From: Devosia chinhatensis
GTDB taxonomy: Bacteria; Pseudomonadota; Alphaproteobacteria; Rhizobiales; Devosiaceae
Reading direction: 5' to 3'
DNA length: 64,000 nt
Assembly: GCF_000969445.1 (NCBI RefSeq)
Contig: NZ_JZEY01000061.1
Location: 1 to 64,000, forward strand
Numbering within the stretch: position 1 is the stretch's first letter; each line of letters starts with the position of its first letter. Both the position numbers and the translations under genes were made by a program. The notes beneath the pieces were generated by a model. The model saw nothing but the letters and a program-made list of their open reading frames with translations, was not told where the DNA came from and made no database searches. Below, piece by piece: positions 10,788 to 12,765 of this stretch.

Positions 10788-11291
10788 ATGAGCGACGAAA
10801 AAGAACACACCCTTTCCCCCAGCGAAGCCGCTGACCGGATCTGGGAACTGGCCAAGAAGATCGATATCTGCATGTTCACCACCTGGGACGGCCAGCAGCA
10901 GCGCAGCCGTCCGATGTCGGCCCGGGTGCGTCGCGACGAACATGCCATCTATTTTCTCACCGATCTTGAAGGCCACAAGCTGACCGAGATCGAGAAATAT
11001 CCCCATGTCTCGCTCGCCTGGGCCGACAATGGCGGCCATAAATATGCAGTGATTGCCGGTGAGGCTGAGGTACTCAACGATCGCGCCAAGATCGCCGAAC
11101 TCTGGGAATCCTTCGACAAGGCTTGGTGGGATGACGAGACCGATCCGCGCATTCGCCTGCTCAAGGTCACGCCGGACGATGGCGAAGTCTGGGACAGCCC
11201 CAACATGATCGTCACCACCGCCAAGATGCTTGTGGCGGCGGCAACCGGCGCAAAGCCGGATGTGGGCGACAATGCCAAGGTCGACCTCTGA
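10788..11291 (+). CDS. Pyridoxamine 5'-phosphate oxidase-fold protein, general stress protein 26 type
   Basis: 167 aa. It has the split-barrel flavin/F420-binding fold of the GSP26-like group: IDICMFTTWDGQQQRSRPMSARVRRDEHAIYFLTDLEGHKLTEIEKYPHVSLAWAD, then YAVIAGEAEVLNDRAKIAELWESFDKAWWDDETDPRIRLLKVTPDDGEVWD. This matches the family pattern in which FMN binds the barrel and a WF/W..G region closes it. No true PdxH residues are evident, so it is more likely an FMN-binding reductase or stress protein than a B6 enzyme. Start ATG 10788 has CGGAG upstream. It has its own terminator at 11299-11323. Confidence 0.85.
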   Translation: MSDEKEHTLSPSEAADRIWELAKKIDICMFTTWDGQQQRSRPMSARVRRDEHAIYFLTDLEGHKLTEIEKYPHVSLAWADNGGHKYAVIAGEAEVLNDRAKIAELWESFDKAWWDDETDPRIRLLKVTPDDGEVWDSPNMIVTTAKMLVAAATGAKPDVGDNAKVDL

Positions 11292-11298
11292 CCTTTTC

Positions 11299-11323
11299 AC
11301 CCCCGGCTCACGCCGGGGGTTTT
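11299..11323 (+). terminator. Intrinsic terminator
   Basis: CCCCCGGC/GCCGGGGG stem (11300-11307 with 11312-11319), loop TCAC, then TTTT. It closes the transcript of the stress-type protein and separates it from the aroG leader. Confidence 0.85.
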
Positions 11324-11387
11324 GCCGTGCACCCCCTACCAAAGTGGGGACTCGACAAGTCCAGAGCGCCACGCTAGCTTCTCGCTC

Positions 11388-11462
11388 ATGATCAACGCCG
11401 CCACCTTTTACTGGTACTTTAGCTATCCGCTCCCGGCGGAGGCTAATGCGCGCGTGTCCTGA
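11388..11462 (+). CDS. Aromatic-rich leader peptide of aroG (24 aa)
   Basis: Short gene ATG 11388 to TGA 11462 containing TFYWYFSY: two Phe, three Tyr and one Trp within eight codons, a density unexpected by chance. It ends 30 nt before a strong intrinsic terminator (11492-11521), which is followed by the DAHP synthase gene. This is the layout of ribosome-mediated attenuation. Stalling on Phe/Tyr/Trp codons would free the mRNA from terminator pairing and let transcription enter aroG. The ribosome binding site is weak (no clear GGAG; GCTTCTCGCTC precedes ATG). The inference rests on codon content, position and the terminator. Confidence 0.75.
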   Translation: MINAATFYWYFSYPLPAEANARVS

Positions 11463-11491
11463 TCCCCTAAGACCAGACCAGATCGCAAGCC

Positions 11492-11521
11492 AGCCGCCCG
11501 ACTTCCGAGGCGGCTTTTTTC
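11492..11521 (+). terminator. Attenuator terminator in the aroG leader
   Basis: AGCCGCC (11492-11498) pairs with GGCGGCT (11509-11515) around loop CGACTTCCGA, followed by TTTTTTC. A GGCGG block at about 11435-11439, inside the leader gene, can pair with the CCGCC of the terminator's left arm. That would be a possible antiterminator when ribosomes stall on the aromatic codons. Confidence 0.8.
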
Positions 11522-11557
11522 TTGGCCCCTCGCAGCACCACCCGAGGGACTACAGAA

Positions 11558-12631
11558 ATGCTCAAATCCACTGACGACCTGCGCATCACCGAGATCAAAC
11601 CGCTGACCACGCCCATCGAGGTCATGCGGCAGCATCCGCGGACCGATACGGCCACCCGCACCGTGATTTCGGCCCGCCACGCCGTCCACAACATCCTTGC
11701 CGGTCAGGATGATCGCCTGGTGGTTGTCGTCGGTCCTTGCTCGATCCACGATCCGCTTGCCGCCATGGACTATGCCCGCCGTCTCGCGGCCCTGCGGACG
11801 GAGCTGAGCGGCAATCTCGAAATCATCATGCGCGTCTATTTCGAAAAGCCGCGAACCACCGTGGGCTGGAAGGGTCTCATCAACGACCCCGATCTCGATG
11901 GCAGCTTCAATATCACCCAGGGCCTGCACACTGCCCGCGCCCTGCTGCTTGATGTCAACAATCTTGGCCTACCCGCCGCCTGCGAATTCCTCGACATGAC
12001 AACGCCCCAATACATAGCCGACCTCGTGGCCTGGGCGGCTATCGGCGCACGCACCACCGAAAGCCAAATCCATCGCGAACTGGCCTCGGGCCTCTCCTGT
12101 CCTGTCGGCTTCAAGAACGGCACCGACGGCAATGTGAAGATCGCGCTCGATGCGGTGCTCTCGGCGGCGCATCCCCATCATTTCCTCGCCGTGACCAAAG
12201 ACGGTCGCTCCGCCATTGCCGCCACCACCGGCAACGAAGACGGCCACATCATCCTGCGCGGCGGCAAGACCACCAATTACGATGCCGCCAGCGTCGACGC
12301 CGCCGCCCAGGCTGCCGTCAACGCTGGCCTTAACGCCGCGATCATGATCGATGCAAGCCACGCCAATTCCTCCAAGAAGCCGGAAAACCAGCCGCTGGTA
12401 CTGGCCGATATCGGTGGCCAGGTGGCTGCCGGCGACAAGCGCATCATCGGCGTCATGGTCGAATCCAACCTCGAGGCCGGCCGGCAGGATCTGGTGCCCG
12501 GCACACCGCTCAAATATGGCCAGTCCATCACCGATGGCTGCATTGACTGGGACAGCACCGTCACTACGCTTACCGCGCTCGCCGAAGCCGTTGAGAAGCG
12601 CCGTGCCGTGACCCGGCAGGCGGTGGCCTGA
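11558..12631 (+). CDS. aroG: 3-deoxy-7-phosphoheptulonate (DAHP) synthase, class I
   Basis: Joins phosphoenolpyruvate and erythrose 4-phosphate as the entry step of the shikimate pathway. At 357 aa it matches the AroF/G/H type. Motifs: VVVVGPCSIHDPLAAMDYARRL, IIMRVYFEKPRTTVGWKGLINDPDLDGSF, the LPAACEFLDMTTPQYIADLVAWAAIGARTTESQIHRELASGLSCPVGFKNGTDGN core, IMIDASHANSSKKPENQ, and DGCIDW near the end. Start ATG 11558 has GAGGGA upstream. It is transcribed after an aromatic leader peptide and terminator, so attenuation by Phe/Tyr/Trp supply is likely. The gene lies inside an otherwise conserved uvrC-pgsA-moaDE block. aroF or aroH would be equally valid symbols. Confidence 0.96.
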   Translation: MLKSTDDLRITEIKPLTTPIEVMRQHPRTDTATRTVISARHAVHNILAGQDDRLVVVVGPCSIHDPLAAMDYARRLAALRTELSGNLEIIMRVYFEKPRTTVGWKGLINDPDLDGSFNITQGLHTARALLLDVNNLGLPAACEFLDMTTPQYIADLVAWAAIGARTTESQIHRELASGLSCPVGFKNGTDGNVKIALDAVLSAAHPHHFLAVTKDGRSAIAATTGNEDGHIILRGGKTTNYDAASVDAAAQAAVNAGLNAAIMIDASHANSSKKPENQPLVLADIGGQVAAGDKRIIGVMVESNLEAGRQDLVPGTPLKYGQSITDGCIDWDSTVTTLTALAEAVEKRRAVTRQAVA

Positions 12632-12639
12632 CGGTAAAA

Positions 12640-12724
12640 ATGGATCACCCGGTCAAGCCGGGCGGTGACGATGAAATGTGAAATTGTTTCTTCCGTCACT
12701 GCCCGGCTTGACCGGGCAATCCAT
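12640..12724. repeat. Long palindromic intergenic element
   Basis: Arms 12640-12670 and 12694-12724 are a nearly perfect 31-bp inverted repeat (core CCGGTCAAGCCGGGC) around a 23-nt AT-rich loop. It stands between aroG and pgsA. The look is that of a dispersed palindromic repeat of Hyphomicrobiales; as RNA it would form a long hairpin that could protect or end the aroG message. Confidence 0.75.
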
Positions 12725-12765
12725 CTCCCCTTGACCCCCCGCCGCCATTCCTGTTCTCTCCCGCA

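Follow-up and report, generated by a model that had tools for sequence, protein, structure and literature searches.

With the synthesis of 3-deoxy-7-phosphoheptulonate (DAHP), DAHP synthase directs carbon into the pathway shared by Phe, Tyr and Trp. In Escherichia coli, the classic example, the enzyme is controlled through allosteric isozymes and repressors. Attenuators that serve several end products of a shared pathway are known from pathways other than the aromatic one, namely thrL (Thr, Ile) and ilvL (Ile, Leu, Val). Attenuation as a class of mechanism is already known, as is a leader before a DAHP synthase gene in Corynebacterium (PMC4046766, PMC11802643). In C. glutamicum, the aroR leader before aroF (Neshat et al. 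2014) controls that gene by leader-peptide attenuation through Phe-Tyr-Phe codons; by its description, with which the comparison was made, this actinobacterial leader responds to Phe and not to Tyr, and no Trp codon is mentioned for it (PMC11802643, PMC4046766). The pheA, pheST and trp leaders of E. coli likewise read the charging of an aromatic tRNA through a leader peptide, each for a single amino acid, and E. coli aroF and aroH are described as being regulated by TyrR and TrpR (PMC11802643). The trp attenuator of alphaproteobacteria (trpL/rnTrpL; RcsR1, RF02552) combines a short leader ORF at the 5' end of the transcript with sensor codons and with an antiterminator that competes with a terminator, and is described as preceding trpE and sensing Trp alone through consecutive Trp codons (PMC10117765, PMC7298713). 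Putative attenuators near aromatic pathway genes of Proteobacteria have also been predicted in the Merino database, before aroA-I-alpha > tyrA in Vibrio and before hisHb > tyrA in Agrobacterium, as cited in PMC1173090.

The window, a 64,000-nt stretch of Devosia chinhatensis DNA, was analysed for a comparable element before aroG, all features of which lie on the forward strand. The gene placed after the terminator by the first-pass annotation was found at 11558–12631 and was identified as a type I-alpha DAHP synthase by TIGR00034 (E 2.9e-157; 522.8 bits, cut-off 173.2), with a score of 538.2 bits against NF006723 that falls below the cut-off of 568 for that model. It is the sole type I match in its genome, a class II DAHP synthase being present on a different contig, and the closest named relative among the matches listed is that of Devosia sp. 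Root685 (88% identical). A Shine-Dalgarno-like GAGGGA precedes the gene at 11544–11549, and such a motif occurs at the aroG start in 49 of 58 representatives. Upstream of the leader lies a PPOX-type gene of weak identity (profile match below the cut-offs), followed by a terminator-like hairpin with TTTT at 11300–11323, identified by direct reading of the sequence. Downstream of aroG, an inverted repeat with arms of about 30 nt (12640–12669 and 12696–12725) spans 12640–12725 and resembles a dispersed repeat or a terminator. Short ATG frames on both strands of the DNA retrieved for the class II gene (L001) included no convincing leader, nor did those near the trpE-like genes of L316–L319, all of which score below the cut-off of the TrpE model.

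The leader ORF, MINAATFYWYFSYPLPAEANARVS and a stop codon, occupies 11388–11462 with an ATG start and 24 codons. The two Phe, three Tyr and one Trp within eight codons reported for it earlier are exact (Phe7, Tyr8, Trp9, Tyr10, Phe11 and Tyr13) and, with Ser12, form the putative sensor at 11406–11426. Among ORFs of 10–50 codons on both strands of the window, scanned from ATG, GTG or TTG with the longest start kept (for the leader frame, the TTG at 11322), no other has at least five Phe, Trp or Tyr codons in any eight; seven reach at least four, and 20 mononucleotide shuffles of the window yielded none with at least six. TTT accounts for 73 of the 85 Phe codons when the 35 distinct leaders from the first set of loci are pooled, as against 12 of 57 for five genes taken from the window, a preference that may come in part from pairing constraints. 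The 24-residue peptide matched no NCBIfam family at E up to 1.

A promoter is predicted immediately before the frame, with a -35 element TCGACA at 11352–11357 and, 17 nt past it, a -10 element TAGCTT at 11375–11380 that ends 7 nt before the leader ATG. Positions of about -32 to -30 are conserved across 113 representatives. The geometry of this promoter puts the predicted transcription start at 11388, the A of the ATG. The distance from the end of the -10 element to the ATG is 6–9 nt in 74 of 80 alphaproteobacterial representatives, and a Shine-Dalgarno-like motif at the leader ATG was seen in 2 of these 80 and in 4 of all 113, where shuffling led us to expect 6.7. For the 32 representatives from outside the Alphaproteobacteria, the best promoter site was 6–9 nt away in 7 and mostly farther upstream otherwise, with a Shine-Dalgarno-like motif in one. 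The leader thus appears, from its sequence and that of its relatives, to be leaderless, its AUG standing at about the transcription start; this is new for the aroG element, and the trpL of Sinorhizobium is already described as leaderless (PMC10117765).

Folding identified an intrinsic terminator at 11492–11520 (segments 3:4) ending in six T at 11515–11520, with a fold energy of -15.7 kcal/mol for 11486–11522. Its stem comprises seven unbroken pairs, 11492–11498 with 11509–11515, and two inner pairs, so that the description of a perfect terminator 30 nt after the leader stop holds for the outer seven pairs only, and the gap from 11462 to 11492 is 29 nt. Upstream of it, within the leader, segment 1 (11419–11431) pairs with segment 2 (11435–11446) in a 1:2, or anti-antiterminator, hairpin of -14.6 kcal/mol, taken from the pair list and from the consensus fold of 35 leaders. 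Two parts of segment 2, GGCGG (11435–11439) and GGCT (11441–11444), double as the left strand of the antiterminator, whose right strand is segment 3 (AGCC-AG-CCGCC, 11488–11498) and overlaps the left arm of the terminator. The pairing of a leader GGCGG with that arm, as first proposed, was borne out by the complementarity of 11435–11439 to the CCGCC at 11494–11498. A simple scanner run over 10900–11800 flagged neither a terminator nor a promoter; we explain the first miss by its loop limit of 8, which excludes the 10 nt enclosed by the outer seven pairs, and the second by the distance of the promoter from consensus.

To follow these structures in relatives, 248 upstream stretches were collected, of which 19 were dropped, and 207 remained once exact duplicates had been removed; near-identical sequences stay in most counts, representatives being used where so named. 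Those dropped include L217, where a different frame was selected although an aromatic leader is present, as well as L226, L261, L144 (weak frame) and L142 and L251 (short upstream DNA), and the 207 contain one false inclusion (L247). A GGCGG-type segment 2 and a CCGCC-type segment 3 co-occur in 178 of the 207 unique loci; the other 29 are without one of the two motifs as defined, and many of them read CUGGCAGC and retain partial pairing. Across 76 aligned leaders, the antiterminator helix of seven pairs showed 88.1% pairing, a value reached by none of 500 shuffles. Three of its pairs changed on both sides, which 11 of 500 shuffles matched, and its covariation score of 0.048 was reached by 8 of 500 shuffles and exceeded by slides of -3 and +1 columns (0.057 and 0.059). 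We attribute this thin covariation to the antiterminator core hardly varying. For a second, distal helix, the own partner beat permuted partners, with 7 of 5000 permutations as good (44 representatives), while a longest-run measure was not significant (682 of 5000). As judged from these alignments, the antiterminator has good support from conservation and energy and modest support from covariation.

The spacing of the same elements points to coding constraint. In 151 of the 166 unique leaders that carry both motifs, the ATG and segment 2 are separated by a distance of one frame class (44, 47, 50, 53 and 56 being the usual values). The interval between segments 2 and 3 favours none of the three classes (59/56/51), a contrast which indicates that indels in the leader are held in frame. 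The leader frames had been chosen as open, a bias which is small as few loci were dropped.

The geometry of ribosome stalling was computed by positioning a ribosome at every codon in turn and folding the RNA on its 3' side, as far as the end of segment 3, with the first free base assumed to lie 13 nt past the start of the A-site codon. The antiterminator forms with a probability of 0.90–1.00 when the ribosome stands at codons 6–12, which include Phe7, Tyr8, Trp9, Tyr10 and Phe11. At codons 2–4 the probability is 0.03–0.05 and the 1:2 hairpin folds instead; codons 1 and 5 give 0.27 and 0.65. A stall at Tyr13 gives 0.32, with segment 2 partly freed, and at later codons the antiterminator is lost. 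When segment 4 was added, the terminator was present in the minimum-energy fold at all stall positions, so that antitermination requires the antiterminator to form first, during transcription. That the terminator wins in these full-length folds slightly lowered our confidence in attenuation, and it was also counted against this reading that aroG is missing from most of the sampled order, with 59 of 397 genomes over the cut-off.

Even with these reservations, aroG is in our judgement very probably controlled by a ribosome-mediated transcription attenuator. The features of trp- and phe-type attenuators were found here as a short ORF enriched in aromatic codons and under coding constraint, an intrinsic terminator, and a mutually exclusive antiterminator predicted to be placed for stalling, and they are best explained by a trp-type attenuator, with the aroG leader working like the trp and phe leaders. 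Transcription would start at or next to the leader AUG, and translation would begin there on a leaderless message. As long as charged tRNA-Phe, -Tyr and -Trp are in ample supply, the translating ribosome would pass codons 7–13, after which segments 1 and 2 would pair or the ribosome would cover segment 2, in either case freeing segment 3 for the 3:4 terminator and ending transcription before aroG. Were any one of the three tRNAs uncharged, the ribosome would stall over segment 1, and, if folding keeps pace with RNA polymerase, segment 2 would pair with segment 3 ahead of the synthesis of segment 4, and the polymerase would enter aroG. The leader would in this way act as an OR sensor of three end products at the shared entry to the pathway. 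Such attenuation and allosteric control do not exclude each other.

The placement of the aromatic codons suggests that one leader covers Phe, Tyr and Trp together, as had been proposed from the window alone. When the productive stall positions, taken from the fold of the window's own leader, were transferred to the remaining loci (203 in all), Phe, Tyr and Trp made up 72% of the 1391 codons in these positions, as against 6% of the 3691 codons elsewhere, and all three amino acids occupy them in 147 of 165 alphaproteobacterial leaders and in 21 of 38 others. It is nonetheless possible, if clearly less probable, that a working attenuator responds chiefly to a single amino acid, probably Phe or Tyr, and that the remaining aromatic codons are slack or serve the hairpin sequence. 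Phe and Tyr are present in nearly all leaders, while Trp is absent from 9 of 167 alphaproteobacterial leaders and from 15 of 40 others; Tyr13 lies inside a hairpin arm at the edge of the productive positions; and the Phe-specific response described for the C. glutamicum leader (PMC11802643) offers a precedent. On the other hand, Trp is present in 158 of the 167 alphaproteobacterial leaders and lies within the productive positions in 155 of 165, and the codons flanking it interchange between Phe and Tyr (26 Phe and 16 Tyr at -1, 39 Tyr and 6 Phe at +1, in 46 leaders), which suits a sensor of any aromatic residue. A Rhizobium tropici-type group of loci (L175, L187, L221) has the core RFYSYR where its near relatives L040 and L181 have RFYWYR, a natural variation in what the sensor contains.

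If the three-way sensor is real, the charging of three tRNAs would be read in one run of codons, a simple joining of three signals, and it is this sensor, the breadth of its distribution and the leaderless start that make the element of interest. It recurs before aroG in many soil- and plant-associated bacteria, and regulatory elements and peptides that annotation has missed are probably present at many aroG genes, given its spread over rhizobial, Xanthomonas-type and Burkholderia-type genomes and the fact that the window copy has no Rfam or NCBIfam match. No report of a leader before proteobacterial aroG was found in the open-access literature searched; Vitreschak et al. 2004, reportedly a survey of attenuators in proteobacteria, may list the element.

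Comparison of the regions upstream of aroG across relatives, the check proposed with the original reading, showed that both the leader frame and the alternative pairing are conserved. Probing 61 genomes, the window's own included, with the aroG protein gave 38 positives, and an aromatic-rich leader precedes aroG at all 38 loci of this first set. Across the family, TIGR00034 was matched in 105 of 136 genomes and all 68 further loci have the leader, in a set that omits the upstream DNA of broken aroG genes in two genomes (G094, G106). In the samples of order and class, aroG scored over the cut-off in 59 of 397 and 14 of 385 genomes, respectively, and 53 of the 55 further loci from order and class have the leader; the two misses are L142, where the contig end is too near, and L144, which keeps the terminator and one aromatic pair. 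Among named loci, the leader was recognised in 65 of 80 by a visual reading that includes L217, L226 and L261. They comprise Devosia, Bradyrhizobium, Mesorhizobium, Methylosinus, Rhizobium tropici, Caulobacter and Leisingera within the class and, beyond the Alphaproteobacteria, Dyella, Rhodanobacter, Xanthomonas, Bordetella, Burkholderia, Caballeronia, Massilia and others. L226 and L261 have aromatic frames, with the T run missing from the expected place; in L226, from a Candidatus Burkholderia symbiont, the frame shifts after the aromatic run and stays open to 48 codons, with the terminator retained, as if the element were decaying. The leader was not found at the named loci of Chitinimonas, Methylotenera, a Thauera MAG and two Vibrionaceae (L267, L268), the last of which differ in this respect from the attenuator predicted for Vibrio (PMC1173090).

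A hairpin followed by a T run lies within 250 nt at 62 of 62 leader-bearing named loci. At the 15 named loci without an aromatic leader, one of which (L251) has just 49 nt of upstream DNA, a hairpin below -10 kcal/mol was found within 250 nt at a single locus, L263, where it overlaps an open frame. This difference indicates that leader and terminator were gained or lost together. Loci with the terminator and without the aromatic codons, which would speak against the attenuation reading, were looked for and proved rare, being represented by L144, with its one aromatic pair, among the alphaproteobacterial loci and by L263, with its terminator-like hairpin, among the named ones. In a midpoint-rooted tree of 84 proteins, 11 rows are truly without a leader; the tree label of L217 is wrong, as this locus has an aromatic leader. 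Eight of the 11 belong to a supported group with nine members on the betaproteobacterial side, and the alphaproteobacterial and Xanthomonas-type side, with its 46 rows, includes none of them (L142 and L144 are excluded from the tree).

A covariance model of the element found the window copy with an E value of 8.4e-27, the sole convincing copy in its genome; a second match there (L299, E 4.8e-4) was rejected, lying in a phage-type-looking gene cluster with no aromatic frame seen. Among 297 genomes of the order, the best 39 matches were all in aroG-bearing genomes and the next three precede tyrS. Matches at E up to 0.01 occur in at least 133 of the 297, and most of those listed past the first 42 span just the terminator half; the weak matches L309–L313 and L315, without an aromatic frame, were set aside.

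A wider reading of this distribution, which we consider unlikely as a whole, is that an ancient leaderless three-way attenuator, working as an OR gate for Phe, Tyr and Trp, travelled with type I-alpha DAHP synthase through the Alpha-, Beta- and Gammaproteobacteria, and that its terminated RNA or its conserved peptide also acts in trans, as does the Sinorhizobium trp attenuator. More doubtful still is a primary role of the leader RNA as a small RNA acting in trans, comparable to rnTrpL/RcsR1 of Sinorhizobium, with attenuation secondary. The window has a match to RcsR1 (RF02552), and RcsR1 is described as sharing its transcription position with the trp attenuator RNA rnTrpL, which is active in trans (PMC7143759); however, at 20.6 bits and E 0.077 the match falls short of the Rfam gathering score of 60, so that the element was not assigned to this family, and it stays with aroG, as the best 39 model matches show. 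The leader as a trp-type attenuator of aroG is also to be preferred over a riboswitch or T-box, which was ruled out since none of the five Rfam matches listed in 11200–11700 reaches its gathering score. An ordinary terminator preceded by chance by a meaningless aromatic-rich frame has a negligible probability, for while the simple scanner missed both terminator and promoter and the preceding gene seems to own a terminator at 11300–11323, the frame is preserved, is unmatched among the ORFs of the window and of its shuffles, and is refuted as a chance occurrence by conservation across alpha-, beta- and gammaproteobacterial relatives.

Several loci outside the main set were observed alongside the aroG leaders. 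The three matches before tyrS (L306:232-350, L307:226-344 and L308:209-326, in genomes G248, G364 and G396 of family f41) each have a leader with a run of Tyr and Phe codons, MIKTAATFVYFYYVTSIPAAA and two relatives, followed by a terminator, with a TTGAC-type sequence shortly upstream of the ATG. The tyrosyl-tRNA synthetase gene was identified by TIGR00234 for L306 and L308 and by eye for L307, and no aroG match was obtained in these three genomes; from its sequence, the element resembles an attenuator by which tyrosine would control a tRNA synthetase gene. In another genome (G418, L314), the aroG covariance model touches a trp-type leader, MNIGNWWWARFARP, which shares the terminator type and stands before a long ORF that looks by eye like trpE. 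Finally, a 60%-complete genome (G131) has two aroG genes (L059 and L098), both preceded by an aromatic leader and differing in the type of that leader, which may reflect a mixed assembly or a second copy.
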